A stretch of DNA of 64,000 nt. Origin: Pyropia yezoensis. Lineage: Eukaryota; Rhodophyta; Bangiophyceae; Bangiales; Bangiaceae. The stretch spans positions 4,479,727-4,543,726 of the forward strand of contig CM020619.1 of assembly GCA_009829735.1 (NCBI GenBank), read 5' to 3'. Each line of letters starts with the position of its first letter. Position 1 is the stretch's first letter. A program made the position numbers and the translations under genes. The notes beneath the pieces were generated by a model. It saw nothing but the letters and a program-made list of their open reading frames with translations, made no database searches and was not told where the DNA came from. Positions 6,050 through 26,070 of the stretch are shown here, in pieces.

Positions 6050-6412
6050 TGTGGCAGTATGGGAACCCGTATTGTTATCCCAACGGAGGGGGGCTACTTC
6101 TGATTCGTACCTTTCATTTTTGTGGATTCACTATGGCTAAGGTATCTACGGGTTACGTATATCCAGAGGGACTTGCGTATTGGAGGGTCGGGTATTTAGA
6201 GGTCGCCTCCGCGGGTTCATCACGAGAAGCCGGCGGCGGTTCAGCCGCGGGCAATAGGAAAACAACAATCCCCTCCCATTTGGGCTCCCATCTTGGTCCC
6301 ATGGCTTGTGCCCCAAGGACAAAAACCTTGGCCACCGGGTGAATCTGACGTCGATCCCCCTTCGCGAGTGTTCCCTGAGAGTGGACAGGTAACGGATCCC
6401 TATTGTGCTACA
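6050..6412 (+). repeat. 5' LTR of the outer element
   Basis: 363 bp, starting TGTGGCAGTATGGG and ending TATTGTGCTACA. It aligns with 25059-25418 and, more distantly, with the solo LTR 47880-48241. All share the CCCATTTGGGCTCCCATCTT block and the CCTGAGAGTGGAC block near the end. Confidence 0.92.
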
Positions 6413-6434
6413 TTGGTGAAGCAGCAGGGGACGG
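6413..6434 (+). promoter_or_regulatory. Primer binding site of the outer element
   Basis: TTGGTGAAGCAGCAGGGGAC lies directly after the LTR. TGG followed by a sequence complementary to a tRNA 3' acceptor is the usual form. The inner element has a nearly identical site (TTTGGTGGAGCAGCAGGGGA), so both probably use the same tRNA. I cannot name the tRNA from sequence alone. Confidence 0.75.
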
Positions 6435-6615
6435 GTTTCCGTCACTCTAGTGGTGACGCCGTCTCCGGCCCTGGCACACGGATAGGGACCCGTCCCCTCT
6501 TCTGTATCTTTTGTCCGTTGGTGGTGTTACTACTTACGGAGTGTGGCTACTTAAGTATCGCTACGTATTGCTGTGGTTGCTGGCTGATTGTGGTATTGAT
6601 TGATTGACTGCCACA

Positions 6616-7761
6616 ATGACTACCCTTGGGACTGGGGGACCATTTGAGGACGGATCGGGGTCGACCCCGATCCCTGGAGTACTGGAGGGCCCCGCCTCCG
6701 GGACCCGGAGTGACAGCGAGGTGACTCCTCGTCCGAGCGGAGCCGGATCTACGTTCGTGACGGCACGCACGGGGGGTGACGGGGACTCGTCACCCCACTG
6801 GTCGGCAGAGATGACTCCGCTGGCGCCGTCACCTTGGGACTCACTGGTAGCCTCGCTGGCGCCCATCGAAGCCCGGTTCTCCGGGTTAGATGCCCGTGAA
6901 GAGCGGAAGGAGGATGCTATGGCGGTACTGATGTCAGCCAGCCACGCGAAGTTTCCCTGTCGCATCATCCCTACACCGGTACGGTTCGGCCGGGTCAGGA
7001 GCGGCGCGGAGGATACCGATGGTGACCTCGGTACGGACCGTTCGGAACTGGCCCCGGATACAGAGGGATTCGAATCCGACTCGTCGGTGGGGCTGGAGCG
7101 TAGCCAGGCGGGCCCCCGCGGGCTGAGCACGGCAGGCACGTCTGCTGTGCCTGAGCCGGCGGCATATGATGGGGATGCCTTCACGTACCACACTCAAGAA
7201 GAGAGTGAGGTTCCGGTATCAGAATTGGATCCGGGACACCTACCGGCGGCACTCATCCAAGCCATCACTACGCAGGTGACTGCGAGCATTATGCAACGCA
7301 TGGAGTCGTCGGAGTCTACCCGGAGATTAGCGCAGCGCCTGGACACCCAGGAAGCGCATCCGGAGATCGTGAACGAGGTCTTCCGGTCGGTGATTACCCC
7401 CGACCGCTACCGACTGGAAAACCGGTCGGGTCGGGTGTCGGAAGCGATGCGCAACCCCTCGCATCGGGCTATCCAATCCATGCAGACCCTGATCAAGGAA
7501 GTTCCGATGTTCGGAGGGCCAAATGGACGTCCATTGGCGGTCATCGGATTCTTGACTAGCTTCAAGGCGGCCGCAGACAAGGCCCTCGTTAACGATGGGC
7601 TTGCTCTGAAGATACTCCCGTTCTTCGTGGACGAACGGGTGAGCGGTATCCTTCTGCAGTCGTCTCCGATGCCGGGGATGAGGGTGGTTGCCACCTTCAT
7701 GGATTACCGAGGGGTCCTCACGCAGCTGCTGAGCAGCTACCTCAGTGAGGACAAGTGCGAG
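6616..7761 (+). pseudogene. Outer Ty3 gag, truncated by the inner insertion
   Basis: Gag would form the particle core. The first ATG in frame is at 6616. The N-terminal about 200 residues are Ser/Gly/Thr/acidic. The central part (about residues 290-380, FGGPNGRPLAVIGFLTSF and following) aligns in character with the inner Gag core (VFEFLRRFTKACDDN). The frame runs into the inner element's LTR at 7762; residues read past that point come from LTR sequence and are not Gag. The C-terminal zinc knuckle and all of the protease expected next are absent on both sides of the insertion. Confidence 0.8.
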
Positions 7762-8229
7762 TGTGGCAAAAACCTCTCGCACACGCGACACCCAAGTTGG
7801 GGCGGTGTACAAGGGCTGCCTCCCATGTCGGGGGAACCGGAAGAAGTGCAAGTCGCACACACTCTATCCCTGTTGTGGGGCAATCCCCCCACTGACAAAC
7901 AAGAAGATGGTGTGTGGTCCAACAGTTTCTTGGTCGGGACGGGGACGCAGGGCCAAGCCCCGCTGTCCCTCCCCTTATCCCCCCAGGGTCCCCTCAGAAT
8001 CTCGCCACTCAGAATCTCCAACCCCTGCACCTGCCCACCGGGCCACACGAAAATCAAGACCATAAATGCAGAAAACCCTCAAATCCAAGTTGGATTTACT
8101 ACTAAGCTAACTATCCCAAACTTAGGGAATATGGACCCAAATGCAGGGGGAGGAACGGATCAGGCTAGTGGCCTGCCGCCCCTTGCATGGCACGTGTTGC
8201 CCCCCTACCTGGGGGTCAATACTGCCACA
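7762..8229 (-). repeat. 3' LTR of the inner element
   Basis: 468 bp. It matches 16668-17135 with five differences after the first 32 bp. It holds two CAASTTG palindromes, CCCAAGTTGGG (7791-7801) and AAATCCAAGTTGGATTT (8081-8097). A partial third relative lies at 25815-26070. Confidence 0.93.
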
Positions 8230-8244
8230 CTCCCCTCTCCTGAG
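8230..8244 (-). promoter_or_regulatory. Polypurine tract of the inner element
   Basis: On the - strand the bases just before the 3' LTR read CTCAGGAGAGGGGAG, a purine-rich tract placed where plus-strand DNA priming occurs in Ty3-type elements. Confidence 0.8.
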
Positions 8245-8567
8245 TTGCGACCGACCCGGTCGGCCCTGTGAGGGGGTGCGTAAACGCACGTCTCGGCGTT
8301 GGGGGCGCGACCTGCTGTACCCCCTTGAGTACGTAACGCGGATGTGGAGGCGGTCGCGTTGACCGCCCCTCTCCTTAAGCTTGCCCACTTGGCAGCTTGC
8401 TCTCCCCGGTTCTCACTTCACCACCACCACCACCTCCCCTTCACCTTCCCCTGGGCCGCCCCACGCTGGAGAGGCCACCCGTTTACCCACGATCCGAGTC
8501 CCCCTCAACTCGAGGCGGGTCTCGTACTGCTGGAGCCAGGGCGTCTCTCCGCAACTTGGGGAGAGCC

Positions 8568-10403
8568 ATGGCGACCCCGGGGGTGGAGACGGACTCCCTC
8601 GATGAACGTATGGAGGACACCTCCTACGGTGCGGCGCCCGCCGGAACTTCCGGCGGGGGCTCCGCGGTTACTCCGGGGTATGGGACTCCCGCGTCACCCG
8701 GCTTTGGGTTGACGGCGGGATCTCCCCCGGAGGCGGGACACGTTGTCCCGCGTGAGGCCTTGGGGCGGTGGTTTTACAACGCTTGGCCTCTGTATGAGGA
8801 GGGGCGGACTATTCTTCGCTGTGGCCCACTTGGCGCAGCGATGGGTCGGGTATGGGACCGCCTACGGGAGAAGTATCCCCGTAGGGTCGGGTTCCCTGCC
8901 GGCTTCAGGACGGACCAGTTTGCCTTCCTAGACGATGAGGAGGTCGAGGACGTACAGCGGGCCAAGGCCATGATGGACTGCGGGGGAACTATCCCGGGTC
9001 CCTGCGACTTGCCGACCTTTACTTGGGACGCGGTGGCAACTCGCCCCCCGTACCTTAACGAGGCCGATCCGCACACTCATCGCTTTGATGTGCGGATGGA
9101 GAAGGACTCTAGGCGAGGTCCCTACTTGGTGACCTCGGCTCAACTTGAGTTTCCGCAGCAGTCCGCTGCCAGTAAGGAGCAGTACTACCCGAAGAAGCCC
9201 GAGTGGTGGCCTCAAGTTGAGGTCCCCTACGGGTTCCCGGCGTTGCTGCCACGGTTGCTCGACCACTTCGGCTCCGTCATGTTGACGGCTAGCCCAGATA
9301 ACCTGGTGTGGGCCACGTTGGCCACCCAGTGGCTCCTCGAGGTCTTGTCGACCTGGGTGTCCTGTGTCCAGCGGCGGGGGATGCTTTGGTATCTTCCCCT
9401 CCGGCTTACCCAAGGTTTGGAACAGCTCACCCCTCAGCTAGTTGCTGAGGGGTGCTCATCAGGACAACTCACTCTACTTGAGGAGATGCTCCGCCTCCAC
9501 AAGTTTATCGAGTGGGAGAGCATTGAGCACAAGTTGCGCCGCCCCACTCGTGGACCCAAGGACGATGGCGCACTTCGCCAGTTCGTGTGGGTCGCTCGTG
9601 AAGTTCACGACGGCCCTGTGGTGCTACGAGAGGGGTTGGGCATCGGGGACTACCCGTATGCCCCGGGGGTGGATCGCCACACTGCGCCACCCCCGGACAA
9701 GGCCATAGTTATGGCTGTGCCCTCATATGATGACCATATGACTCAACCCACTGCGAAGGCCCCAAGTCGGGGTCGCAGTTACACCCGGGTCCCGCCACCT
9801 CGGCGTGCCTTTCCGCTTCCTCCTGTCCCCTACCAGCCGCACGGGGACATCCCGATTAGCGTGGCCGTTGAGTCGTCCACCCCGGTGTCCCCCATCTCGG
9901 GGGCCACCCTCCTGACGGTATACCCCAAGTTGGTGTTACCGCCCACGCCTCTAACCTCAGAGATGATGATCACCACGTTGGTGCGCACCATGTCCTGGTT
10001 GGCCGCGTCGACCGCAACCCTTCAAACTTCCGAGACTCCTCAACTTGAGGAGCGCGTTCGTACGGCAGTGGCGACCGCTAGTTGCGAGTCGGTGGCGGAG
10101 TTTATGACGGCCGAGTTGGCTCGCATCGGGGCTATTATGCCCCAACCAGCTCCACTTGGGCGTGGCAAACGTCGCGCGAGCCGGGCATACTCGCCTCCTT
10201 GCCGTCGTCGCCGACACTCGCGGCGCTCTCCCTCCGTGTCGGAAGACGAGTTGTCTTACTCCGTCTCGGAGTCCTCCACTCCTTCAGATTCGGAGTCGGT
10301 CCGGCGTATGCGTCGCCAACTTGCGCGCAAGACTAAGCAGAAGAGCAGCCGCGGTCGTCGGCACTTGCGCGACCGTAAGGGGCGCGGCGGTTCCGACTTG
10401 TAG
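8568..10403 (+). CDS. Antisense accessory ORF of the inner Ty3 element
   Basis: An uninterrupted 611-aa frame opposite to gag-pol, between pol and the 3' LTR. I chose the ATG at 8568 (context GAGCCATGGCG) because the longer frame upstream starts at TTG in Pro-rich sequence. Visible parts: an acidic start (residues 1-20), a Gly/Ser/Pro linker to about 60, a folded-looking middle with many Trp/Tyr/Leu (about 65-340), a Pro-rich linker, a helical segment (about 450-530), then a basic Arg/Ser tail (about 540-611: RRRRHSRRSPS, RRMRRQLARKTKQKSSRGRR) that could bind nucleic acid or enter the nucleus. I do not recognise the family. A broken relative sits at the same place and orientation in the outer element (21176-23716), which argues for a real gene. 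The function is unknown; silencing escape or RNA binding are guesses. Confidence 0.75.
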   Translation: MATPGVETDSLDERMEDTSYGAAPAGTSGGGSAVTPGYGTPASPGFGLTAGSPPEAGHVVPREALGRWFYNAWPLYEEGRTILRCGPLGAAMGRVWDRLREKYPRRVGFPAGFRTDQFAFLDDEEVEDVQRAKAMMDCGGTIPGPCDLPTFTWDAVATRPPYLNEADPHTHRFDVRMEKDSRRGPYLVTSAQLEFPQQSAASKEQYYPKKPEWWPQVEVPYGFPALLPRLLDHFGSVMLTASPDNLVWATLATQWLLEVLSTWVSCVQRRGMLWYLPLRLTQGLEQLTPQLVAEGCSSGQLTLLEEMLRLHKFIEWESIEHKLRRPTRGPKDDGALRQFVWVAREVHDGPVVLREGLGIGDYPYAPGVDRHTAPPPDKAIVMAVPSYDDHMTQPTAKAPSRGRSYTRVPPPRRAFPLPPVPYQPHGDIPISVAVESSTPVSPISGATLLTVYPKLVLPPTPLTSEMMITTLVRTMSWLAASTATLQTSETPQLEERVRTAVATASCESVAEFMTAELARIGAIMPQPAPLGRGKRRASRAYSPPCRRRRHSRRSPSVSEDELSYSVSESSTPSDSESVRRMRRQLARKTKQKSSRGRRHLRDRKGRGGSDL

Positions 10404-10622
10404 CCGCCGGCCCCGCCGACTGGTGGGGAGCGTTATCGCCGTGGGTCTCGCCGCTCGCCTCCAAGTGAGGGCGAGGGCCGTGGGGTTGGAGAGTCTAGCA
10501 TACATGCCTAGTTGGCAGCTGCCTTTGTTGTGAGAGTGTGAGGGTAAGGGCTGTAATTAAAAGCCACTCTGCGTACCACTTCGACTTGAAGCACTCTCTT
10601 GGCACTGTTACTCGGCCTTCCC
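10404..10622. promoter_or_regulatory. Gap between convergent pol and antisense ORF (inner)
   Basis: A 219-bp gap between two converging stop codons. It should hold 3'-end signals for both transcripts. It contains AATTAAA at about 10556 and small hairpins (CCCTCACGTTGAGGG at 10619-10633, reaching into pol, and TTCGACTTGAA). Confidence 0.4.
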
Positions 10623-13424
10623 TCACGTTGAGGGAGGGCTGTTAGGGTCTATCTCATTCCGAGCACAGTATGCCCGGACCTTCTCAGCGGGAAGGTCCTC
10701 CACATACTCCCACGTATCATCCTTGGCTTTGTAGCCAAACCAACGGACCCTGAACATGAGGCGGTCAGTGTCCTCATCCCAGCCGTGGTCGATGAACTTA
10801 TCGAACACGTACTCCTGCGGGCCCTGTTTCGCCGCTGGTAGTGGGGGGAGGCGCCACGCTTCCAACGCACGCGCCCAAGCTGGGTCGCCTGCAGGCGGTG
10901 GTGCACCTTTGACCACGTCCTGTCCGTTCACTGTGCGGACCCCATCGTCACTTTCGATGGTGAAGCGCCGCCCATCAGTACGAAGGACCTGGTACGGCCC
11001 CTTCGTCTGGAATACCAACTTACCCCCAGTTGGGGTGTGTGAGTGAACCAGCACCCAGTCACTTTGCTCGGGGACATGCTTAGCATTGCGCACCTTTTTG
11101 TCAAAGGTACGCTTGTAGCGCTTTTGTGCTTTGTCCATCTCAGCCCTGACTTTAGGGATGAGGTTTTCAAGCCTAGCAGCGAACTCCGCCTTACTCTCAG
11201 TAGGAGTAGGCGTACTGCCACCATCCTCCCTAGTTGGGAGCGGCCGCCGCACGGCAATAGACCGCACGCGACGGGGGGTCACAAAAGCAAGGGGTACTTC
11301 CCCGGTAGATGAGTGAACCTGCGAATTGTAGGCAGTGGTAAGAATGGAAATGTATTGGTCCCACGTTTTCACGTGCTCACTCACATAGTGGCGCAGCTGC
11401 CGAACAATAGTTTTGTTGAAGCGCTCCACCTGCCCATTAGTTTGTGGGTGGTAGGCGGTGGCATAGTTTGCCTTAACCCCCAACATATCCAGCACTCCCT
11501 GAAACAGTACAGACGCAAATTGCGGTCCATTGTCCGATAGTGTACTATCCGGAATGCCATACGCGGCAACCCAGTGATCTAGGAAGGCTGACACGACCGA
11601 CATGGCCGTGATCTCTGCCAGTGGGATCGCTCGCGTAAGTTTCTTGAAGCGGTCACAGATGACCGGGAGGTACTGGTTGCCCTCCTCGGTCACTGGCAGT
11701 GGCCGAAGGATGTCCATCGCCAACGCGGCAAAGGGCTCCTTGGCCGGGAACAATGGCATAGCCGTAGTAGGCCGCCGTTCCATCAGACGGTTCTGTCCGC
11801 AACTTGTGCAGGCAGCCACCCAACTGTACATGTCCACCACCATGGACGGCCAGCAGTAACTGGTCCTCAGGGTCTGGTACAGTTTACTCGACCCCAGGTG
11901 TCCACCTGTAGGAGCATTATGCTCCCTCTCAAAGATACTGTCCTTGAGGGATGCGGGGACGACAAGTTGTTCGGTCCCCTGGAGTACCCCCCTCCTCATG
12001 AGGAGGCCATCGTCCCCAAGAAAGAAACGCGTCTTCGCCACTGTATCCAGTGTATCCCTCTGCGACTTGCAAAAGGGATCCTCGGCCTGGGCCTTCACCA
12101 CCTCGTCCAGGGACAGGGGCAAGTACTTCTTGTTCCCTGGCGCCTCGGGGTTCAACACCTGACCCGAGCGCGTGACTACCCCCACGATGGGGATGTCCTC
12201 ATAGACTGGGTTAGTGTCCAGCCCCTCGGTAGGTACCCGAGAAAGACCGTCGGCAAGGGCATGTTGCCTGCCAGGTCGTTACTCAATATCAAAGTTGAAG
12301 GGTGCCAGTCGCACCCTCCACCGGTTGAGATGAGTGTTCGTACAGTCCGTCTTGAAGATGAACTGCAACGCGCGGTGGTCACAGCGGATGAGGAACTTCT
12401 CACCCTCTAGGTAGTGACGAAGTGACGTCACCGCCCACACCACTGCGAGTCCTTTCAACTCGGTGACTCCGTAGTTCTTCTCGGCCGAGTTCAGCCACTT
12501 GCTGAAGTACCCCACCGGCAAGTACTCCTTGTCCGGCTGCTGCTGAAGCAACACAGAACCAAGTTGGTCATAGCTAGCGTCCACATCCGGGATGTAGTGG
12601 CCTCCCAACCTGGGAATAGCCAGGATAGGGGGCTTCAGCAGAAGGTCTCGAAGAGTCTCGAAGGATTCCTGCTCCACCCGACTTGGGGGAGGCAGGTTCT
12701 TCGGTAGCGTTGAGCTCACTAGCTCATTCAACGGCTTCGCCACCTTCGCGAAGCCCTTCTTGAAACGTCGGTACACGTTACACAACCCGAGGAAGCTCCT
12801 CATCTGGGTCTGGGTCCGGGGGTACTGAGCCTTACGGATGGCCCTCAAGTTCTTCTCGTTGACACTGAGACGCCCCGGACGGACATCATGTCCAAAGTAT
12901 TCCACCTCTTGAGTGAAGAGGTGGCACTTACTCGCCTTCAGTGACATACCGGCGTCAGCAAGTAGCTTGAACACCTGGCCAAGATGGCCAATGTGTTCCT
13001 CCGGACTTCGGGAGAACACAATGATATCGCCTAGGTACACGAGACAGATCTGCCACCGTACTCCGGCGAGAATCATGTCCATAGCGCGCTGGAAAGTTGC
13101 CGGTGCGTTACACAGGCCAAACGGTAGACGCTTGCACTGGTAGGTACCACAGTGACAGGTAAAGGTAGTTTTATGCCTGTCCTCCAGGGCAATTGGAATT
13201 TGCCAGTACCCCGCGTTACAGTCCAGGGTAGAGAACACGTTTGCCTGCCCCAGAGAGTCCAGACAGTCATCCATCCTAGGTGGGGGATAACTGTCCTTCA
13301 CCGTACTCTCATTGAGCTTACGGTAGTCGATACAGAACCGGGGGGTCCCATCAACTTTGGGGACGATAACCACCGGACTCGCCCACTCGGCGTTACTGGC
13401 CTCGATCACATCGAGGGCCTCCAT
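10623..13424 (-). CDS. Inner Ty3 pol: RT, RNase H, integrase, chromodomain
   Basis: One frame from the RT N-terminus to the chromodomain, broken only by TAA at 12279-12281, at a position usually filled by Tyr (after FNFDIE). RT has the conserved fingers and palm blocks, but its active site reads YLGD at about 13030-13045, not YLDD. RNase H follows (PDVDASYDQLG, YGVTELKG, RCDHRAL). Integrase has the HHCC zinc region (EREHNAPTGGHLG ... CTSCGQ) and D, D, E blocks (LAMDILRPL, LSDNGPQFAS, NGQVERFN). A chromodomain (FRVRWFGYKAKDDTWEYVED) ends the protein, as in chromoviruses, where it directs integration to chromatin. The YLGD change alone should block reverse transcription, so this copy probably cannot move by itself. 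Confidence 0.9.
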
Positions 13425-14605
13425 GCGAGCAACTTGCTCCTTAACGAGGGCCCTTGAACGGGGTCCTCCCTATACGGTTGTTGGCGTATAGGGCGTGCAC
13501 CGGGCTTCAACTCGATCCGGTGTTGGGTAGCTCTCATGAGTCCCAATTGACCATCCCACAACTTGTGATATTGGTCCAAGAGGCGTTCAACTTGAACCCT
13601 CAACCTGGGTGGAACACCCTCCATGTCCACATGGGGCCGAGGAGAGGCGGCCGACTTGGCTTGATGCTTCTCCTTTCCGGACTTCGGGTCGCTACTTGCG
13701 CCCGCGTTGAGGGTGACCGCTACTACCGGTCCCTCGTGTTGGTCGATATAGCCGAACTTGGCTCCCGACTTGAAGTACTTGGGCGACGAGCTCAGGTTCA
13801 TCACCTGGATCCTCCACGGGACTCCGGCTTTGGAGTCCATCGTGCCAAGGGCAACATGCGCTTGGTGCTTGCGAGCAAGACGGGGGTAAGGGTGCACCAA
13901 CCCGTTCCCCGTATAATCAATTACAACATCAACGTGCGCCACCGAGTTGGGGGGCAACGTGACTTTACGGGCTAAACGCAGGGTAGCTGTAAACCCTTCC
14001 CTCACAGAGCAAACAGGCTTCGACTGTGAGACTGTCACAGGAGCCACAGACTTTCCCTTACCAAGGATGGGGATAGTCTCCCCATTCATCAACTTGACCC
14101 AATACTCAGGGCCACAAATCAAAGGCACTTGTGTTACGACATAAGGGGTACCCAGAAGCAGGGGTACCGATATATTCTCAACTACACCATAGGTCACGTC
14201 GACCTCATGGGTCCCCAACCTAGTTGGTAGGGTCACGGCACCAACGATGGGAAGTACCCCACCATTGATATCGATCAGATGGTCAGCTTTAGACCTCCAG
14301 CATTGGAGCTTCATCCCCTTTGGTAATAGCGACTTGCGTATCAAGGAGGCTCCTGACCCGGTATCAAGTACGATACGGGCACAACAGGCGCGGCCGGGGG
14401 CAAGTTGCACCCGTCCAGCCACCTGGAAGTTCTCACCCGTCAGCACCGCGATGACCCGACGTGGGTTTACGTTCTTGGGGAGTCCTACCCTAGGTGGGCG
14501 GACTCCCTTAGGTCGCCGCAGTATCCGGCACGGTTGGTTCGTCCTCTTGACCCACTTGGCCGAGGCTGCCGTTGTGAGCTTCGGACGGCCAGCTCCAACG
14601 GTCAT
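13406..14605 (-). CDS. Inner Ty3 aspartic protease and RT lead-in
   Basis: 399 aa. The retroviral-type protease motif DTGSGASL lies at residues 81-88; this enzyme would cut the Gag-Pol precursors. The ATG overlaps the gag stop as ATGA (14605-14602), suggesting reinitiation or a frame change between gag and pol. The last about 60 residues (QHRIELKPGARPIRQQPYR) are the usual RT lead-in, then the frame leaves the RT frame and stops, overlapping the next ORF by 19 nt. A one-base indel near 13440 is the simplest reading; a programmed shift is the alternative. Confidence 0.85.
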   Translation of the reverse strand: MTVGAGRPKLTTAASAKWVKRTNQPCRILRRPKGVRPPRVGLPKNVNPRRVIAVLTGENFQVAGRVQLAPGRACCARIVLDTGSGASLIRKSLLPKGMKLQCWRSKADHLIDINGGVLPIVGAVTLPTRLGTHEVDVTYGVVENISVPLLLGTPYVVTQVPLICGPEYWVKLMNGETIPILGKGKSVAPVTVSQSKPVCSVREGFTATLRLARKVTLPPNSVAHVDVVIDYTGNGLVHPYPRLARKHQAHVALGTMDSKAGVPWRIQVMNLSSSPKYFKSGAKFGYIDQHEGPVVAVTLNAGASSDPKSGKEKHQAKSAASPRPHVDMEGVPPRLRVQVERLLDQYHKLWDGQLGLMRATQHRIELKPGARPIRQQPYREDPVQGPSLRSKLLAWRPSM

Positions 14606-16548
14606 TCGTTTCCCGCCGACTTGGCGTCCGAGTCTGAGGGCAAAGGGGAAGACGACGAGTCCGAGGACGACGTGTCCGCCCCTTTCGCCGAGGGTGTGGC
14701 GACCGCGACGACCGGTCGAGACCCACCCTCGCGGCGTGAACGTACTTCGTTCGTAACCGACTTCTTACTCGCATTCCTAACAAGTTGTTGGATGCGTTTA
14801 CTCAACTTGGGGCAATCATATGCCCAGTGTCCATCGGAGTTGCAGTTCCAACACCGATTGTCAGTTCCCGGAGGGGTCTTCCCAACTGGGGAAGACGAAG
14901 AGATACCCCGGGAAGCACCCACGGCAGCTACCACCCTCTCCTTGCGGATTTGGCGTGCCTCTCTCAACTCTCTGGCCTGGCGCGCCTCCTGCCGTTCCTT
15001 GGCCAACTCGGCCTGACGCTCCTGGTGTTGTTCCTCCCGCAACTTGCGGTGGGCCTCGCCTCTGCGGTAAGCGAACCTGACTAACTTGGCCAGGGTCGCC
15101 CGGGCAGTGTCATGCTCCCGGGTCTCCATCCGGACTGACCAATGGAGTCCGTCCGCAAACCGACTCTTCACCACAGCTTGTGGATGAAGAAACCCACAAA
15201 GATTGTTGAGCTTACGGACTCGCTCCGCAAAGGACAACTCGTCCTCCGCCTCTTCCTGATGGGCTTGCGTAAACTCCTCGACTTGAGAAGCCAGCGCCGC
15301 TTCATCAACCATGGCTCTCAACAACCAGTTGACGAGCTCCAAATAGGACGTCACCTCACTAGCGCCTCCACTTGAGGAGCTGGGCATGAAGGACATAAGT
15401 TCTGTCCGCAGGTCTCCCTTCGTAAACTCCTGTAGCATGTAGAAAGCCATGCCCTCACTTATGGCATTGTCGTCACAGGCTTTTGTGAAACGACGTAGGA
15501 ACTCAAAGACACGGAGGGGGGGAGTTCCATCCCACTCCGCTTTGTGCCCAAAAGAGTGAAGTGCATTCTTCTTGGCACGGCCCATGGCTCGGGCCTGGAC
15601 AGGACCATACGCCACCGACTTGTTGTGGAGGGCGTAGGTCTCACAGTCAAAGATCCTCTGGTAGACCGGGTTGGCTACCTGGATCTTGGGCGGCACCTCA
15701 CGTTGAGGGAACAGCCGCTGTGGCACTGGGGTAAGTTGAGCCTCGGTGCCTGTAGTCTGGTGCGGCGAGCTTGGTGTAGCCGCCGGCGTTTCCGGGGGAA
15801 ACCCCCCCGTGAAGGGCGTACGCCCCACCGAGTATGGCGTGGCTCCCGCGTTGGGAGTCACAGGTGTCGCCCCCTGTTCGGGGCGACCAGAGGTTGGCGT
15901 GAGGAGGGATTCCCCCTGCGCCTGCGGGCTCGAAAGCCCCGATCCGGTCTGGACATTAAGGCCATCTGGCAAACTCGCCACAATCTGATTCAGAATTGTA
16001 TTCGTCATCGTGACCACCAGGTCCGGCAAAGTCTGCCGCAACACATTGGTCGCCTCCCGACGGACAGTTTCCGCGAGCAGTGGATTATCGACTCCAGTTG
16101 AGTCTCGGTCCGCCTCCGGGAGTCCGCCTGAGGGGTAACCATGTTCCTCAGGGGTCTCCACCGGGGGCATGGGCGCGAGCCCATCGCCGACCAACGGAGG
16201 TCCGCCGTCCTCCGAAAGCCTAGTTGGCGACGGCTCCAAGCCAAAGTTGGCTCCAACCCGAGTGGAAACCGCGGGGACAGTCCTCACCCCTTGGGACGTT
16301 CCCGTTGAGTATACCACACGGTGGCCAGACTTCGGCCCACCCACATCAGAAGTGTCACCCGAGCGAACTCCCGACTGAGTCGGGGTGGCCTGTTGCCCGC
16401 CCGCACTTCCATTCCTGCTGGCTTGAGGGACCTCCGGTCCCTCTGCGACCCCAGGTAAACCCACCGGTGTCTCACCAGTATTCAAAGGCACTGAAGTACG
16501 TGCGTCACCCGTATACTCCCCGGACGACGGGGGGTCCGAACTAGCCAT
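14602..16548 (-). CDS. Inner Ty3 Gag with CCHC zinc knuckle
   Basis: 648 aa from the ATG at 16548; the longer frame begins at GTG. The N-terminal half is Pro/Gly/Thr-rich and disordered. The central retrotransposon-gag region (FEFLRRFTKACDDN ... NWLLRAMVDEAA ... EDELSFAERVRKLNNL) is followed by a charged coiled-coil-like segment (EEQHQERQAELAKERQEARQ) and one canonical CX2CX4HX4C knuckle (CWNCNSDGHWAYDC) about 80 residues from the end. It ends in a Ser/Asp-rich tail. It should form virus-like particles and bind the element's RNA. No disruption seen. Confidence 0.92.
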   Translation of the reverse strand: MASSDPPSSGEYTGDARTSVPLNTGETPVGLPGVAEGPEVPQASRNGSAGGQQATPTQSGVRSGDTSDVGGPKSGHRVVYSTGTSQGVRTVPAVSTRVGANFGLEPSPTRLSEDGGPPLVGDGLAPMPPVETPEEHGYPSGGLPEADRDSTGVDNPLLAETVRREATNVLRQTLPDLVVTMTNTILNQIVASLPDGLNVQTGSGLSSPQAQGESLLTPTSGRPEQGATPVTPNAGATPYSVGRTPFTGGFPPETPAATPSSPHQTTGTEAQLTPVPQRLFPQREVPPKIQVANPVYQRIFDCETYALHNKSVAYGPVQARAMGRAKKNALHSFGHKAEWDGTPPLRVFEFLRRFTKACDDNAISEGMAFYMLQEFTKGDLRTELMSFMPSSSSGGASEVTSYLELVNWLLRAMVDEAALASQVEEFTQAHQEEAEDELSFAERVRKLNNLCGFLHPQAVVKSRFADGLHWSVRMETREHDTARATLAKLVRFAYRRGEAHRKLREEQHQERQAELAKERQEARQARELREARQIRKERVVAAVGASRGISSSSPVGKTPPGTDNRCWNCNSDGHWAYDCPKLSKRIQQLVRNASKKSVTNEVRSRREGGSRPVVAVATPSAKGADTSSSDSSSSPLPSDSDAKSAGNE

Positions 16549-16644
16549 GTTGGCTGACGATCCGTATGACACGGTCCAAGTCCACCGTTCCTCTGAGACA
16601 GAGGGCCCCCTACACCCGGGCGCACCCGGAGGTAAAGTTTACCT

Positions 16645-16667
16645 CTGTCCCCTGCTGCTCCACCAAA
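16645..16667 (-). promoter_or_regulatory. Primer binding site of the inner element
   Basis: Directly inside the 5' LTR, the - strand reads TTTGGTGGAGCAGCAGGGGA and continues CAG. It is nearly the same as the outer element's site at 6413, supporting a shared tRNA primer and a common ancestry. Confidence 0.8.
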
Positions 16668-17135
16668 TGTGGCAAAGAGCACTTACACACACGACACCCA
16701 AGTTGGGGCGGTGTACAAGGGCTGCCTCCCATGTCGGGGGAACCGGAAGAAGTGCAAGTCGCACACACTCTATCCCTGTTGTGGGGCAATCCCCCCACTG
16801 ACAAACAAGAAGATGGTGTGTGGTCCAACAGTTTCTTGGTCGGGACGGGGACGCAGGGCCAAGCCCCGCTGTCCCTCCCCTTATCTCCCCAGGGTCCCCT
16901 CAGAATCTCGCCACTCAGAATCTCTAACCCCAGCACCTGCCCACCGGGCCACACGAAAATCAAGACCATAAATGCAGAAAACCCTCAAATCCAAGTTGGA
17001 TTTACTACTAAGCTAGCTATCCCAAACTTAGGGAATATGGACCCAAATGCAGGGGGAGGAACGGATCAGGCTAGTGGCTTGCCGCCCCTTGCATGGCACG
17101 TGTTGCCCCCCTACCTGGGGGTCAATACTGCCACA
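16668..17135 (-). repeat. 5' LTR of the inner element
   Basis: 468 bp, direct repeat of 7762-8229 with TGTGGCA/TGCCACA ends. It contains the same two CAASTTG palindromes (about 16697-16707 and 16987-17003). Confidence 0.93.
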
Positions 17136-20100
17136 CTTCGGTTGGCCCAGCGGACCCGCTTCGAGCCACAATCCGAGACAGTGGTCACGGTCAATGGAGA
17201 TCTGGCAGGCCTCCGCCAGGCGCAAACTACCGTGCGCTCGTACAAGCGACACGGGCTTATCGAGGCCAATCGTATCATTGACATTCGAGCGTGGACACCC
17301 ACGCTAGTGGTGGTGGCGAACTACCGGCACAAGGCCGTCACCATTCCCAAAGAGGCCCACCTGGAAACGGCGGAGGCGTTCGAGGGGGACATACTCACCC
17401 CAAGTGAGGAAGACCCAGTGGCACTACTGTAGGCCCTGTCCGTAACAGACACGCTGCCCCGGGAACCCCCGACATCCGAACACTCGGAGCCTCTGTCGTC
17501 CATGACGGATATGCCCACCAAGGAACAAGAGGCCTTGCAGGCAATGGCCGAGGCTGACCTCGACCACTTCACCCCCGCTATGGCCGAGGGGTACGGCGGC
17601 TTTTGAGGAAGCATGAAGTCATGTGGACCGGCGGAGCCCTGGGAACGATTGGGTCAACCCAACATCGTATAGACCTGGTACCAGGTGACCGCCCAGTCCG
17701 GTCCCAGCCCCACCAGGCCGGGCCTCTCCAACGAGATATTGTTGATGGGGAGGTCAAGCGCATGAGGAAAGCCAAGGTCATCCGACCTTCCATGTCCGAG
17801 TGAGAAGCCCCAGTAGCGATAGTACGAAAGAAAGACGAGGCACCTCGCTTCTGCATCGACTACCGACGCCTCAAATTGGTTACCAAGAAGGACTCATATC
17901 CGTCACCACGGATGGACGAGTTCACCGACTCGCTGGGGGAAGCCGCAGTGTTTACCACCGTTGACTGCAACGCCAGGTACTGGCAAATCCCGGTAGCCGA
18001 GGAGGAAATCCCAAAGACAGCGCTCGTATGTCACAGTGAGGTCTATGATTTCCCAAGGATGCCCTTCGGATTGTCCAGCGCACCTGCTACATTCCAGCAG
18101 GCTATCAACATTGTACTGTCGGGGGTGAAGTGGCGTAGCTGCCTAGTGTACCTCGACGATGTCATCGTCTTCTCACCTAACATGGATGACCACGTCCATC
18201 ACGTCGACGAGGTACTAACCCACTTGAGGAACGCCGGGGTAACCCTGGGGCTAAAGAAGTGTGCCTTTTTTTAACAGACAGTGGAGTACCTGGGTCACCA
18301 GAAAGCCCCAGGCAAACTGGGGGTGCTCGACGCAAGCACCCGGGCACTCCGGGACGCTCGGTAAGCGAACACCCAGACACAGCTCAAGAGCTTCCTGGGG
18401 ACGTGCAACGTATACCGGCGGGTTGTTAAGGACTTCGCCCGGATAGCCAAACCGTGAACGGTTCTGACTAGCAACACCTTACCAAAGGTTCTCGAACCTC
18501 CTTCGCAAGCCGAAGAAGAGCCAATCGAAACACTCAAACAGGCGCTCCCTTCTCCACCCGTGTTGGCATTGCCACACCGACACGGGACATTCGTCATCGA
18601 TGTCGATGCATGTGATACCCAAGTCGGGTGTACCCTGCTGCAGTGAGAGGTGGTCATCGGTAACGATGACGGCATGCCGGAGCTACACCCGGCTGGGTAC
18701 TACAACAGAACGCTGAACCCAGCGGAGAGTAGCTATAGCGCAACCGAGAGGGAATGCCTCGCGGTAATATGGGCAGTACAACTGCTCCAACAATACCGGG
18801 AAGGCTCCAGGTTCATCGTGATGTCCGACTTCGAACCTGTACCATGGCTACTCAACTTTGGTGACAAGGATTCCGACAGTCATGGTCGGTTAGCCCGGTG
18901 GCGGCTCAAGATGGCCGAGCACGACTACCGGACCATATACAAGGCCGGGTCCACCCACCACTTGGGGGACGCCCTGTCTCGCCTCGAGACACCAAGTGGG
19001 GATACCCACCCGGTCAACGAGGATATCCCCGTGGTACCCGTCTGCATGGCGGGCAACGCAGCGAAAGGTATGGTTGGCCATACAAGGGAGCACGCTGCCA
19101 CACTACTAACCCTCACGGACTTCCGTGAGTCACAGGCCAATGACGATGACTGTCAGAGACACCAACCCATCCTCCTGGCCAAAAGGGCAGGACCCTTCTC
19201 GGAGAACGAGGATGGACTCATATACCGGCGGGCCCCCGCCGACGGACGCGAACATGTCGTGGTACCCGTGTCCCTACAGCAAGCCGAGATGGAACTGGAG
19301 CACGTCAACCCAACCGCAGGGCACCCTGGGGGGTCACGCGTGTTCGCAGCCATGCGAAGGTTCTTCTACTGGCCAGAAATGGCAGTCGACGTGGTTGACC
19401 ACGTCCGGGGATGCCATCCGTGTGCACCGAACAGGTTGAGTCTTCATACACGGGCGACCGCCATGAAGCTCTTCCCACCCGATGGGCCCAACTAGCAGGT
19501 GGCTATTGACATCCCCGTCCCACTTCCGGAAATGGAAGACGGAAACAGGTTTATCCTGGTAATGTCCGACCGCTTCACAAGGCTGTCAAGGGCCGTAGCC
19601 ATCGCCGATGATAAGGCATACACCATCATGAACGCAGTGGTTGAAGACTGAATAAGCGCTTATGGGATCATGGCCCAACTCCTCTCCGGTAACGGAGCTA
19701 ACCTGACGTCAACCTTCTATCCAAAGGTAATGAGCATGTTCGGTATCGAACCGCGTCGGGCGTCCGAATACCACCCGCAGGCATGCGGGCAAGTGGAACG
19801 GTTCAACCGTACCATCGTGAAGATGCTAGAGTGTTAAGTGGCCGAGCACGCGAGCACATGGGACAGGCTAATGTCCGTCCTTACCCTGGCGTATAACGCC
19901 AGGCCACACCGAAGTACCAACATCGCCCCACTCAAGTGGATTATGCCACTATGGGTAGGAAGCCTTACCGTTCCACCGGGCCGGTGCACCCGATACGACA
20001 TATTGAAGAGCAGACCCTCCGAACGTATCCACTTTGCTTGGTTACCCAATCTGTCATGGATGATACTCAAACTCAAGGGTGCCCTTTACCGAACACAGCT

Positions 20101-20578
20101 TCGGTACAAGAAGAACTTCGACGCCCGGCTTCGGGTACTCAACGCCTACCTTACAATACGATACTGGGTGTACGTACGACACCAGAAGTTCAGGGTCAAC
20201 AAACTGATGCAACCCGTCAAAGGCCCATACCAGATTCTCCACTGAGATGAACACTCGGTCATCCTACGCCGCGATACGGAGGTACAACGAATCGGTATGA
20301 ACAATGTATCACAGGCCCCTAAGCCGGAACAACCTCAGCCGGTACCGGCTGTGCCCCTACCGAAGGCGGTGACCCGTGCCCGGGCACAAGACCCAGTAGG
20401 CCCGGACGGAGTACCGCACCAAGTAGAGAACATTATCGGACACACCGACCCTGCGTCACCAGAATCCTGGTACATAAAGGTACACTGCGTCGGATACGAC
20501 GCACCGACGTGGGATCCCGGGTCGCAAATGCCCAGGCAACTGCTCATGCCATACATAGGGCGACACCGCCACCTCTAG
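17136..20578 (+). pseudogene. Outer Ty3 pol, decayed (RT, RNase H, integrase, chromodomain)
   Basis: The sequence resumes after the inner element between protease and RT (17136-17430), then shifts frame near 17590. From there to 20578 it stays in one frame with nine stops: 17801, 18272, 18362, 18455, 18644, 19493, 19649, 19835 and 20243. RT keeps YLDD (in CLVYLDDVIVFS), RNase H and the integrase zinc region are recognisable, and a weak chromodomain (IKVHCVGYDAPTWDPG) is present. The integrase block that reads LSDNG in the inner element reads LSGNG here, so a catalytic Asp is lost. Stops at 17801 and 19649 fall where the inner element has Trp. The decay is by substitution with almost no indels. 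Confidence 0.88.
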
Positions 20579-20691
20579 GACACACCCACACCGACCCAGG
20601 TTGTGGGGGGTGGCGCTTAGGGCTTAGAAACACCTAAGGCGTAAGGTATCTAGGGAGGTAAACCTCCAGTCATACCCAACATGGGTACTGA

Positions 20692-20968
20692 CCCAACCAG
20701 TACTGGTTGGGATACAACATAGGTACTGACCCAATCAGTACTGGTTGGGAGACAACATAGGTACGGACCCAACCCGTGCCATATGGGTAAACAACTGAGG
20801 AATTCCTCAATTGTAGTTGGGAATAACTCAAGCAACACTAGGGTATGCCCCGGTGGCACCCAATCATTACTGGTTGGGAAAGTACATGAGACTTGGATCA
20901 CGCCAGAACAAGTTAGGTACAAGAAGGGGAGGGTAACCTCCGACCTCACCCAAGCATTACCGGTTGGG
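20692..20968. repeat. Array of palindromes between convergent ORFs (outer)
   Basis: A perfect 20-bp palindrome CCCAACCAGTACTGGTTGGG at 20692-20711 is followed by near copies at 20730, 20768 (degenerate), 20859 and 20949. Spacing is 38, 38, 91 and 90 bp. The array sits between the end of pol and the end of the antisense ORF, so transcripts from both strands would fold into hairpins here. A role in 3'-end formation or replication is possible. Confidence 0.8.
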
Positions 20969-21175
20969 AAAAAGGATGAGGGTTACCCCAAGGGGAGTCG
21001 GGATAATCGAGACGGGTGCTTGGGTAAGGTTAGCCTTCCCCCCAAGAGGGCCAGAGAGGGCATGGTGTGACAAGTAAAGCATCCCCTAAGGAGAGGAGTT
21101 TACAGCTCCAGCTACCTGGTCACCCGAAGGGTGACCGGCACATACACCCTCCTCATCTACTCTCACTCAGACCGG

Positions 21176-23716
21176 TCACACACCTCCCCAAGGAGGACTT
21201 TGGTCCCCAGACGGGAGCCGCTCACGCATTTCCGCGTACACCTTCCGACCCCATCGGTCGGCAACTTCCTGACGGTTGACTATCTGAGTAACCTCAGAGC
21301 ACAGCTCGAGGAGAGTGCCGCGACCGGACGCCACCGCGTCCGGGGCCCACTGGAGGTTATCCAGGACCCCCGAAAGGGTACGGGCAGTGCCGATCAGCGT
21401 GGCACCAGGGGAGACGTCCCCCCAGCTAACCGAAAGCTCCTCCCGCAAGTCGCGGGTAATGACGGCGTCAACGCCCTCATACCATAGGCGTTGGCCGGCG
21501 ACCGGCCCAACAGAGCCGGGGGACGCTACCCCCGGAGCCGGAGGAGGCCCCTCGGCCATCGGCAAAGAAGACGAGGCCCAATACTGGGAGGGACCTGACC
21601 CGGGAGAGCGGGCCGAACCCACGAAGGAAGACCCACCGGTGACCCGGCGGGTCTCCCCACGTCGGCGGGACGCCTCACGTCCCCCTCCCGAAGAGTCCCA
21701 GTCCCGGTTCCGACGGTGGGTACCCGACGTCGGCACAGCCCCGAACCAGGGGGACAACACCTGAAGGGAGTCAGGCAGAACAACGGGGATCCCCAGGTCA
21801 GCCACCGCTTCCGTGGAGGCCCACCCACGGTAGTGGTCCTCACCCGGGCTAGCCCGGCGAACCCGTAACTAGTGTCGAGGCATGGGGGCAACCTCAGCCT
21901 AAGGAACTCTAGACGAGGATAGAGTGAGCACTGCCGACCAGTTCACGGCATCGTGAAGGTCCAGCAGTGAGCCCAACTCCCGAGACAGACCTGTCCGCTC
22001 GGCGACGGCCTCGACACCGAGCTCCCGGACGTGCCGACGGACACCGGTCGGAAGGCGGAACAACCGGCCCTGCCGGCAAGCAAACAGGAGGAAAGCAGAC
22101 ACCTGCCCGAGGGTAACGTCGAGGGTAAAGATACCCTGCAGCACGTGCACGGGACGACCCACCAGCACGCTGCCAAAGTACAGCAAGCACGGACAGGTGT
22201 CAAACAGGAAGCCCGGGGCGGGCTCCCACCCTTCCTGCCACCCCGGAGGGTGGAGCAGGGTATGCACCGGTGCACGACGGTTGCCGGTCTGCAGAGCGGG
22301 CATTTTGCCTGTCCGCAGTGCGTCAGCCATGATGCCGTGGTTGCGTCGCCAGCTCGACGTGGACTTCAACCCGGCTATAGGCGGGAAGGGTGCCGATAAA
22401 GAAAGTTACGGGGGACCCTTCGCGAAGTATTCCAACCCGGGATACCGGTCGGTGACAGGCACAGGCTGGCCGAACCCCACCGCGGTAGCACAAGCCGCAA
22501 TCCCCTGTACGAGTGTAGGGTAATCCACGTCCCGCTGGAAAGCGGGTGCCACTAGGTCACATAACCCGAAGCCGGGGGCGAGGGAAACCTCACCTGCCCG
22601 CCCAACACGGTTACACCAGAGCATGGCATGCCGGTCATCCGGCTGTGATAACACGCAATGATGTTCCACGCGCACCGATAACGGTTGCGCCACCACCCAA
22701 GCGAGCTCCTGCTCCCAACACGGGTCCAGCGCAACGGGACGGGAGTGACCTCCCCCGCGGACACCGACGGCAGGCCGCCCCCGTCAGGAGGGTGATAATC
22801 CACCGGCATCCGCCCAGCGGAGTCCAGCGGCGCGCAAACAGACAGGCACCGGACCCGGGCCACCAGGTCGGGAACCGGCATGGACGGAGCACCCCCCGGC
22901 GTGGCTAGGTCACCACCCAACGGGGAAACCTGAGCAGGACCCGGCAAGACCGCCGGCACCGGGGGAAGCCCCACCGCACCGACCCCAAGACCGACAGAGT
23001 CGAAGGGCGGCGCCATCCGAGGCGACACCGCCACCCGGGAGCGGGAAGGAAGAAGAAGGGCGGGCTCACGTCGCGACGAGGACCCGCCGTCCTCGGCCAT
23101 GGGTGACAAGCCGTCGGCGCCGACGGACTCCCGGGACCCCCCAGGAGGAACACCAGGCCCAACAGGAGGCACCTCCCCCGCCTGGGGCACCTTGGGGTAG
23201 ATGCCCACCATCGTCGCCGCCGTCTTGCCCGGCCGACGCCGCCGCCTCCTTCACCACTGGGGTGTCTTGAACGCGGGTACCCGCCCCGTCTTGACCCGCG
23301 CCTCCGGGGGTAGACCCACCGCCATCTTGGTGACTCCCCTCCCCGCCACAAGGGCGAGAGCCTTGCGACGACCCGGCGCCGGAACCGGCCCAAGCAACCT
23401 CCCGGGCAGTCGGCGAGGGAAGAGCACCCGCCAGGCGGGCCACCGCCTCGCGCAGGAAGAGCGCGCGCGGAGAACCCGACACGGGCGGCACGGTGGTACC
23501 GCTGCAGACCGACATTCGACCACCCGACGGGGCGCCCGTCGGGACGCGGGCGGCCACAGTAACCGGAGGAGCCCGGGGCGCCTCGCCGTCCTCAGACGAG
23601 CTGACACCCGCCGAGCAAGATACCCCGGCGGGATTCATACCGACGGGATCTCCGTCCTCCACGTCCTCCTCCAGTAGGAGGTCGTCCACACCCCCGGTAG
23701 CCACGGGGTCAGTCAT
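21176..23716 (-). pseudogene. Antisense accessory ORF of the outer Ty3 element, broken
   Basis: Reads opposite to gag-pol between pol and the 3' LTR, like 8568-10403 in the inner element. The ATG is at 23716, with an acidic start (VDDLLLEEDVEDGDP). Coding then moves through frames at about 23211, 22696 (stop at 22406), 22369-21899 and 21805-21176, so it is disrupted. The middle piece (YFGSVLVGRPVHV, ACRQGRLFRLPTGVRRHV) lines up with the inner protein (HFGSVMLTASPDN, CVQRRGMLWYLPLRLTQG), in the same order and at similar spacing. The N-terminal part also resembles the start of the locus at 28853. The family is not recognised. Confidence 0.65.
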
Positions 23717-24320
23717 ATCAGGTGGCAATAGGGGCACCCCTCACCTCCCGGACGAGAACTCGTCCACCTGAGCGCGCGAACCTGACCGGGACGAGCCAGG
23801 GACGTGCGGATACCCGCGCTTATCTACGCCTACCTCCCAACGAGAGGTTGCCAGACGACGGGTAGTCACGGCGTCCTCTAGCCGCTTCCGCACCACCCAC
23901 GGGCGCGGGCGCCCTCCACCCCGGCACCTGGGTGTCCACAGCCACCACTCACGGGGTGAATCAAAAGAATTACCCCTAACGAACCAGTCCCCACGGGAAG
24001 CGGTTACGACGCACCCGCCGCCCTGTTCTTGAGAGGGCGGGGCCAGCTCTAAACACCTGGAGGCGGATCCGCTGCACCACCACCCCGGAAGGGTCGTGCA
24101 GCCAACCCCGTACCGGTAAGATCGGCAGTCCGGCAAACGGACAGACTGTATGTCACCTCGGGACAGCGAATAACGCCCCGCGTGCGACCCAACGATTAGG
24201 TGACCTCCGTCAGCGGGCGCAAAGCCCCATTTACTCGGAAAACGATTGCGATACGTAAATCATTCGAAAATACAAATGTGCGTCCGACCCGAGCACGGGT
24301 CGAATCTAAGGGTGGGCATA
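23717..24320. other. Outer element 3' untranslated region
   Basis: No gene seen. It ends in a purine-rich run, AAGGGTGGGCATA at 24308-24320, directly before the proposed start of the split 3' LTR, and is a candidate polypurine tract. Confidence 0.4.
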
Positions 24321-24324
24321 AGTA

Positions 24325-25058
24325 TGGTGCTTTTCCCAAAATTGGCCACATCGGTGTGGGAACGCAACCTTTGATGCAAACAGCAACAGTATCTGGCCCA
24401 CTTGATCGCGGGCCTGACCCACAATATGTGCAGCCAATCTCAGGGCATAGAGCGCGCACATCGCACCGGCCACGGACTGTGATGCACGGAGCTCCAGAGA
24501 AGGTGACGGTTGGGCACGTCAAGTGAGCCATCTGCCCACGCACGCTGAGCAATCAAATCAGCACACGTTGCAAGACCAGCCTCGTGATTGCATTGACCAA
24601 TCGTATGGTCGACACGTTTTCACATGTTGCCGGAAGCGCCCGCAACAAGCACTCGCAGGCCGCAACCCGCACTGGAAGACCCGGCCTGGTTTCACGGATC
24701 GACCGCGGTCCGCCTCTGAGAGTCAAGCAGCCAATAACCATGAAGGCCTGGGGGGGTCGTGACGCCACATAGTTAACAACCCGGGCTCTGCATTAGCAAA
24801 CCGGACTGGAACTACCTCGCCCATTTTACCGGTCCATCGCAACCCGGGACACGGTTGGCGCAGTGGTCCCCGGAAGTCCGCGATCTGGCCATCGCCGAGC
24901 ACGTGACCCCCACAACCAGCACTACTTACCAACACAATGGAGCTACGCGAAAGTCCGACGGACGTGTGACACGCCTAGAAGGCCATCCAGGGGCGGTGTC
25001 GAGGACCCGTCAAAGGTTGCGTTGCACACCGATGTGGCCATTTTTGGGAAAAGCACCA
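24325..25058. mobile_element. TA-flanked terminal-inverted-repeat element (MITE-like)
   Basis: 734 bp with about 50-bp inverted repeats. The left end reads TGGTGCTTTTCCCAAAATTG; the right end is its complement with a few changes and one indel. TA lies on both sides (24323-24324, 25059-25060), typical of Tc1/mariner-type insertion. No transposase inside. Removing it joins AG-TA to GCAACATGGG and restores an LTR of 362 bp, the same length as the solo LTR, so it landed at the third base of the outer 3' LTR. Confidence 0.75.
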
Positions 25059-25418
25059 TAGCAACATGGGAATCCATATTGTTATCCCAACTGGGGGGGG
25101 CTACTTCTGATTCGTACCTTTCATTTTGTGGATTCACTATGGCTAAGGTATCTACGGGTTACGTACAGCCAGAGGGAATTTCGTATTGGAGGGTACGATA
25201 TTTAGAGGTCGTCTCCGCGGGTTTATAACGAGAGGCCGGCGGCGGTTCAGCCGCGGGCAATAGGATAACAACAATCCCCTCCCATTTGGGCTCCCATCTT
25301 CGTCCCATGGCTTGTGCCCCAAGGTCAAGAACCTTGGCCACCCGGTGAATCTGACGTCGATCCCCCTTGGCTAGTGTGCCCTGAGAGTGGACAGGTAACG
25401 GTTCCCTATTGTCCTACA
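25059..25418 (+). repeat. 3' LTR of the outer element (main part)
   Basis: Aligns with 6052-6412 and ends GTCCTACA, followed by the GGAGT target duplication. Its first two bases are probably 24321-24322 (AG in place of TG), cut off by the MITE-like element. Confidence 0.9.
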
Positions 25419-25814: not shown

Positions 25815-26070
25815 TGTGGCTAGACCCACACTACATACCGGCACCCAAGTTGGGGCGGTGCATAGGGACTGCCTCCCTATGGCGGGGGAGTCGGAAGAAG
25901 TGCAAGTCGCGCACACGTAGTCCCTGTTGTGGGGCAGACCCCCCACGACGAAACAAGATGATAGTGTGTGCGCCAATAGTTTCTTTGTCGGGACGGGGAC
26001 TACCCCAGCACCCGCCCACCGGGCCACACGAAAATTCAAGACGAGAAAATGCAGAAAGCCTCAAATCCCT
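25815..26070 (-). repeat. Fragment of an inner-type LTR
   Basis: Begins TGTGGC and matches 7762-8085 with internal deletions and many substitutions (CACCCAAGTTGGGGCGG, GGAAGAAGTGCAAGTCGC-like and CACCGGGCCACACGAAAA blocks). Similarity stops at about 26070. It is an old truncated relative of the inner element's LTR. Confidence 0.8.

Follow-up and report, generated by a model that had tools for sequence, protein, structure and literature searches.

Short inverted repeats with family-specific spacing along Ty3/gypsy retrotransposons of Pyropia yezoensis

Many short stem-loops distributed along a genome can constitute an ordered RNA structure at genome scale. The pattern described here, of short inverted repeats with variable arms, occurs along Ty3/gypsy long terminal repeat (LTR) retrotransposons of the red alga Pyropia yezoensis; it is centred on one of them (the inner element), which is nested within another (the outer element) in a 64-kb stretch of contig CM020619.1 (positions 4,479,727 to 4,543,726; hereafter the window, numbered from its first base). 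In the VANDAL elements of Arabidopsis, the element-encoded anti-silencing protein VANC binds a short motif and removes methylation; this motif, an invariant 9-mer, is present in same-orientation tandem arrays that lie mainly in non-coding DNA (PMC5735166). Dispersed RNA packaging signals are a known kind of signal, with many short stem-loops along a genome (PMC6281560); Retand-type Ty3/gypsy elements carry an antisense open reading frame (ORF) between pol and the 3' LTR, the words 'inverted' and 'hairpin' being absent from the main text of that source (PMC11963269); and plant LTR elements slightly prefer palindromes as insertion targets (PMC6911290).

Like the VANDAL elements, to which the preliminary description of this DNA had compared it, the inner element carries a dense, family-specific short motif along its length (CAASTTG, that is CAACTTG or CAAGTTG; 20 sites against about 3.4 expected), a related family has a different one (CGASTCG in the sister family L047; 12 against 3.7 expected), and a protein of the element is a candidate reader; in this outline the comparison holds. 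The sites do not, however, form fixed, same-orientation, mainly non-coding arrays: they are palindromic, with variable paired arms, and 36 of the 40 odd-spacer repeats of the inner element lie within ORF regions. Compared with packaging signals, there is no sense-strand bias and no sign of selection on sense RNA, the centres are two-fold symmetric, and the spacer is family-specific. The antisense ORF of the inner element has the same position and orientation as in Retand-type elements, without their match to TRP28 (PF04195). Palindromes are tied to LTR elements here as in the targeting study, where they are insertion targets, whereas in the present case the element itself contains them, and the signal for insertion at them was not replicated. 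VANC arrays, RNA packaging signals, and the Retand type are the nearest known kinds, and all of them depart from the present pattern in one or more of the features tested. The pattern matches none of the compared systems; limited searching of the open-access literature turned up no account of LTR elements with inverted repeats arrayed at specific spacers. One genome was studied (107.5 Mb, with three large contigs of 43.6, 34.3, and 29.4 Mb), with most families represented by a single copy or a few.

CAASTTG occurs 22 times in the inner element (20 unique sites), four times elsewhere in the window, and not at all in the outer element's own sequence, in agreement with the preliminary count; it is the top over-represented 7-mer of the inner element, with 3.36 sites expected in 8.9 kb of unique sequence under a second-order Markov model (P=6e-10) rather than the one or so previously supposed. 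In 2000 synonymous-codon shuffles of each of the five inner ORFs, the mean count is 1.36 against 7 observed in the antisense ORF, 0.25 against 2 in integrase, 0.22 against 2 in reverse transcriptase (RT), 0.97 against 4 in the protease region, and 0.53 against 3 in gag, and the observed count is reached in 0, 39, 31, 13, and 21 shuffles, respectively; the codon-preserving control named in the preliminary description thus leaves the enrichment standing in all five. Pairing commonly extends beyond the core: at least one further arm pair is found at 15 of the 20 unique sites, against 27% of random centres (P=1e-5) and 29% of 150 other 7-nt odd palindromes, and at least two at 11 of the 20, against 8% (P=9e-8) and 11%. 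All four bases occur next to the core; pairing, not sequence, is therefore the common feature. The cores comprise 11 CAACTTG, 9 CAAGTTG, and 1 CAAWTTG, and the six longer palindromes quoted previously, at 8081, 10036, 9210, 13427, 13585, and 15037, are all present. The ten CAASTTG sites of the 4.1-kb RT region are each intact in 21 to 29 of 29 other copies; as these differ from the window copy by only 3.6% on average, they are too young for retention to prove selection. Their fixed differences (0 of 70 columns in cores, 0 of 30 in arms, 98 of 4000 elsewhere) and private variants (1.2%, 0.9%, and 1.7%) go in the expected direction, in numbers too small to rely on. L048, a copy of a 90%-identical subfamily, has 10 sites per unit (2.5 expected) against 20; some of its sites are common to the inner element, some lost, and some new.

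CAASTTG is the most frequent centre in a larger group of short, perfect inverted repeats whose arms vary; several Ty3/gypsy families carry dozens of these, with a centre spacing specific to the family. In the inner element, 14 of 40 AASTT 5-mers reach arms of at least 5 (35%, against 2.4% for other cores), and in L048 7 of 27; in L047, whose RT is 70% identical, the main core is GASTC (10 of 70, against 2.2%), with AASTT at 5 of 19. When perfect stems of at least 6 are counted at every spacer, with the expectation taken from base composition, L049 has 20 at spacer 4 (1.5 expected; 2 and 5 at spacers 3 and 5), the inner element 14, 10, and 11 at spacers 1, 3, and 5 (2.0 expected), the outer clade 13, 10, and 16 at spacers 0, 2, and 4 (2.2 expected), and L047 13, 13, and 16 at spacers 5, 6, and 7 (2.1 expected). 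L157, an 8.5-kb stretch of the abundant family of L037, L040, L041, and L043-L045, has 0 to 5 stems at each of spacers 0-15 (1.8 expected) and no excess, the whole family being near expectation. Stems take up 11-15% of the bases in L049, the inner and outer elements, and L047, 25% in the 3-kb piece L036, 3.4% in L157, and 5.2% in non-element DNA; the excess drops to about 1.5-fold at spacers of 16-30 bp and is near baseline beyond. Non-element DNA of the window has no spacer peak (0-7 stems per spacer; 4.2-5.1 at long spacers), and a 29.6-kb non-element stretch shows a mild rise (19 stems at spacer 5 and 15 at spacer 7, 4-14 at the others from 0 to 12). Direct 6-mer repeats have a different profile (2, 11, and 2 at 1, 3, and 5 bp in the inner element, 1 at 4 bp in L049). 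In the five inner ORFs, odd-spacer repeats number 34 against 9.1 in synonymous shuffles, none of 200 being as high. The first tests were picked after the data had been seen; the spacer spectrum and the L157 control are later checks. The earlier picture, in which an invariant core is flanked by matched arms that vary, is correct, and a selected site would fit. The unit is, however, wider than CAASTTG: perfect inverted repeats with a family-specific spacer occur in coding as well as non-coding DNA of several families, some of which have centres other than CAASTTG.

Genome-wide, CAASTTG outnumbers its reversed pattern (35,340 to 9,726), as CGASTCG does (19,419 to 15,450); the CAASTTG figure was discarded as evidence, reversal being a poor control because CAAWTTG too outnumbers its reverse (6,481 to 1,626). 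CAASTTG pairs at gaps of 1-2 bp lie at loci without detectable similarity to the element, and on viral contigs six stretches fit a pattern, none of them confirmed. On C1 of G000, the spacing of CAASTTG recurs at about 102,005-124,207 with a period of roughly 8-9 kb, suggesting head-to-tail element copies, and CAAATTG recurs every ~1.7 kb at 603,258-611,823 and every ~0.88 kb at 807,738-819,189, suggesting satellite-like arrays.

What calls for explanation is the excess of repeats, their family-specific spacer, their symmetric centres, the absence of strand bias, and the lower divergence of their arms in the outer clade. The reading we prefer, at a probability of roughly one in three, is a family-specific dyad or cruciform code on the double-stranded DNA of the element, read by a two-fold symmetric, likely element-encoded protein, for which the product of the antisense ORF is a candidate.

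The strands bear on a competing explanation, by which hairpins in the genomic RNA, with fixed loop and variable stem, would serve Gag or nucleocapsid as packaging or folding signals spread along the genome. Loops of length 4 or 5 would suit it, and in the four families rich in repeats the sense RNA is more stable than its shuffles by 3.2-6.1 kcal/mol per 80 nt (1.1 in L157; four shuffles per stretch). The antisense strand, however, has the same excess: sense and antisense values are -6.1 and -5.8 in L049, -4.4 and -4.6 in the inner element, -3.2 and -3.3 in the outer, -5.3 and -5.0 in L047, and -1.1 and -1.0 in L157, alike in 5 of 5 families (P 0.43-0.97). Stems with a single G:U mismatch number 88 on the sense and 91 on the antisense strand (23.8 and 27.0 in shuffles; five element sequences, three spacers each), and single G:U changes between outer-clade lineages 69 against 94 (79 against 124 in control repeats); selection on sense RNA would favour G:U on the sense strand, and the lack of such a preference argues against it. 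The centres are self-complementary and have C or G on their axis almost equally often (11 and 9), and the tables of loop letters, counted after reverse-complementing L070 and L072 and with stretches of N in some loci, are near mirror-symmetric in L049, the inner element, and L047. Because the centres are two-fold symmetric and neither G:U pairs nor folding prefer a strand, the simplest reading is that selection acts on the DNA duplex, or on both strands, and not on sense RNA. Hairpins, as raised in the preliminary description, could form, without the strand bias expected of sense RNA, and we regard the RNA explanation as somewhat unlikely.

A further explanation makes the repeats a by-product of mutation. 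In quasipalindrome correction, a nascent strand folds back and one arm is templated by the other; the element's RT might do this with an enzyme-specific loop length, which would account for matched arms growing from a short seed, for family spacing, for strand symmetry, and for the restriction to elements. The CAASTTG enrichment itself would be left unexplained, L157 has a related RT and no excess, and the three closest outer-clade comparisons contain 0, 0, and 1 compensatory pairs against some 20 predicted (estimated by hand); so little arm-to-arm propagation at close range argues against continual copying of arms. Compensatory double changes make up 30 of 56, against 34 of 112 in control-spacer repeats (P=0.004), in counts over related lineages that are shared by descent. 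In the outer clade (six sequences, 3 kb), the arms of 48 family-spacer repeats diverge by 0.128 per site, against 0.153 overall, a mean of 0.164 in 300 position shifts (none as low), and 0.200 in 49 repeats that arose by chance at spacers 7-20. Gaps led to the removal of 21 family and 11 control comparisons, and some repeats entered twice at nested spacers. Arms are less divergent than other sites in 5 of 5 comparisons, which represent four distinct pairs of 15 possible (odds ratios 0.36-0.75, P 2e-5 to 0.024). This points to some repeats having been kept intact during family divergence, and to a job for them; that they are a by-product of RT we consider unlikely.

It is very improbable that the repeats are landing pads, targeted by the integrase so that copies nest in each other. 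Among the first 64 unique flanks (52 loci were parsed, of which L064, L095, L099, and L100 gave no genomic flank; with further flanks added, 66 reduced to these 64), 18 repeats are centred 5-35 bp from the junction, against 5.3 in shuffles, with 5 against 5.3 further out, and pooling both flank sets gives 22 against 8.9, in keeping with the palindrome preference of plant elements mentioned above. The independent second set, which was the test (40 loci, 44 flanks, 41 unique), has 4 against 3.6, so that the apparent clustering of palindromes some 16-17 bp from the insertion point, which the first flanks had shown, was not replicated; the pairing profile has no peak except one offset at z 2.6, and there is no pairing about the 5-bp target duplication at 11 sites. 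Although overall enrichment was not replicated, neither set has a repeat with arms of at least 6 centred 18-26 bp from an inner-family LTR junction (0 of the 22 that lie near). Chance or composition, whether through codon usage, GC content, or low complexity, has next to no claim, since the mild rises of even-spacer repeats in the inner ORFs and of spacers 5 and 7 in non-element DNA are outweighed by the synonymous shuffles, the Markov controls, and L157 as a same-genome negative control.

In the dyad code on double-stranded DNA that we prefer, dispersed dyad-symmetric sites, that is, perfect inverted repeats with variable arms and family-specific centre and spacer, would be maintained because a protein with two-fold symmetry recognises the double-stranded DNA of the element (provirus or cDNA), possibly in a form prone to cruciforms, and prefers a centre and spacing that shift between families. 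The need for paired arms suggests a structural component, an extruded or bent dyad, beyond the reading of bases. Most likely the element itself would encode the reader; the leading candidate is the product of the antisense ORF, which could mark the DNA of the element so that it is expressed or protected. Slightly less probable is that centre and spacer of these paired, sequence-variable repeats diverge between sister families in a lock-and-key-like manner, an element-encoded protein marking the element's own DNA by them. Several observations weigh against the dyad code. The arms have little fixed sequence, which is unusual for recognition by a protein; the loop tables of the outer element are less symmetric; neighbouring short spacers are weakly raised too, mostly in L047 and also in L049; and even-spacer repeats in the five inner ORFs reach 17 against 8.6 (equalled in 2 of 200 shuffles). 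Arms are hardly conserved between the inner element and L048 (9.0% against 10.3%), and at control spacers 17-40 the odds ratios of the five outer-clade comparisons are 0.93, 0.59, 0.98, 0.57, and 1.41, one low value having P=0.007; with 0.57 and 0.59, two of the five controls are not clean. L157 has an antisense ORF (22% identical) yet no repeat excess, so that the ORF alone does not explain the repeats, and domain scans of the antisense protein found no recognisable DNA-binding domain.

The long antisense ORF, a gene in which no domain was recognised, has homologs in other families of the element: L047 (36% identical), L157 (22%, E 1e-6), and, in decayed form, the outer element (25%, E 0.002), with one close homolog among 8000 scored candidates. 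It is stop-free in 71 of the 72 genome places listed, window included (72 scored of 3587 first-look candidates). The window protein has no match in Pfam, NCBIfam, or PDB, and none of the four antisense-ORF proteins scanned (window, P0001, L047, and L157) matches a Pfam family, TRP28 included.

Between its LTRs, the inner element encodes gag, protease, RT and RNase H, and integrase in the order typical of Ty3/gypsy elements, with a weak protease match and, at the C-terminus of integrase, a borderline match to the chromodomain that marks chromoviruses (Table 1). Among 18 inner-family copies and solo LTRs with both flanks, 11 have a 5-bp target duplication, 1 a 4-bp one, and 6 none; the window copy has none (7757-7761 and 17136-17140) despite LTRs about 97% alike, possibly through inter-element recombination. 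At 25815-26068, a related LTR fragment, 85% identical, lies beside the outer element and retains the palindrome CCCAAGTTGGG, and 56,945-60,983 holds dense GC-rich tandem repeats with units of up to 266 bp.

Table 1. Features of the inner element and its host element, in window coordinates; '+n' gives further arm pairs beyond the CAASTTG core.
Feature	Position	Strand	Basis or remark
Outer Ty3/gypsy element, split by inner insertion	6051..25418	+	No CAASTTG; excess of inverted repeats, spacer 0/2/4
Inner Ty3/gypsy LTR retrotransposon, complete insertion	7762..17135	-	LTR pair, minus-strand Pfam domains, ORFs
LTR copy, 468 bp	7762..8229	-	97% ungapped match to partner LTR over 300 nt
LTR copy, 468 bp	16668..17135	-	LTR pair comparison
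Antisense ORF, 611 aa from ATG	8568..10403	+	Between integrase and 3' LTR
Integrase, chromodomain-like C-terminus	10623..12278	-	Integrase_H2C2, rve; Chromo 24.5 bits (Pfam), cut-off 25.1
RT / RNase H	12279..13469	-	RVT_1 5.5e-33
Protease-region ORF	13406..14764	-	Weak Asp_protease_2, E 0.17, below cut-off
gag ORF with zinc knuckle	14602..16638	-	zf-CCHC 1.3e-5
CAAGTTG, arms +2	7793..7799		LTR
Palindrome AAATCCAAGTTGGATTT	8081..8097		LTR
CAACTTG, armless	8552..8558
Inverted repeat CCCGCCGGAAcTTCCGGCGGG	8637..8657		AASTT core without CAASTTG
Inverted repeat, arms 8, spacer 3	8733..8751
CAACTTG, arms +2	9141..9147
Palindrome CCTCAAGTTGAGG	9210..9222
Inverted repeat, arms 11, spacer 5	9428..9454		Common to L048
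CAAGTTG, armless	9530..9536
Inverted repeat TCGTGAAGTTCACGA	9596..9610
CAAGTTG, arms +1	9926..9932
Palindrome CTCCTCAACTTGAGGAG	10036..10052
CAACTTG, armless	10317..10323
Inverted repeat, arms 8, spacer 7	10676..10698
CAACTTG, armless in window	11800..11806		Form in 23/29 other copies has longer palindrome
CAAGTTG, arms +1	11963..11969
CAAGTTG, arms +2	12560..12566
Inverted repeat, arms 8, spacer 7	12733..12755
Inverted repeat, arms 9, spacer 5	12902..12924
Palindrome GAGCAACTTGCTC	13427..13439
CAACTTG, arms +2	13559..13565
Palindrome GTTCAACTTGAAC	13585..13597
CAACTTG, arms +1	14090..14096
CAAGTTG, arms +1	14401..14407
CAAGTTG, arms +2	14781..14787
CAACTTG, armless	14803..14809
Inverted repeat, arms 8, spacer 5	14876..14896
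Palindrome CCGCAACTTGCGG	15037..15049
Inverted repeat, arms 8, spacer 3	16425..16443
Inverted repeat GAGGTAAAgTTTACCTC	16629..16645
CAAGTTG, arms +2	16699..16705		LTR
CAAGTTG, arms +5	16992..16998		LTR

Selection across the coding regions of a mobile element that keeps about a tenth of its bases in paired arms, at a spacing specific to the family, is without a match among the systems compared. If the repeats are read by a protein, they would give an element a new means of distinguishing its DNA from that of the host; if they are a by-product of reverse transcriptase, they would reveal a strong force shaping the genomes of retroelements. Related families with and without repeats occur in one genome, which makes the question directly testable.

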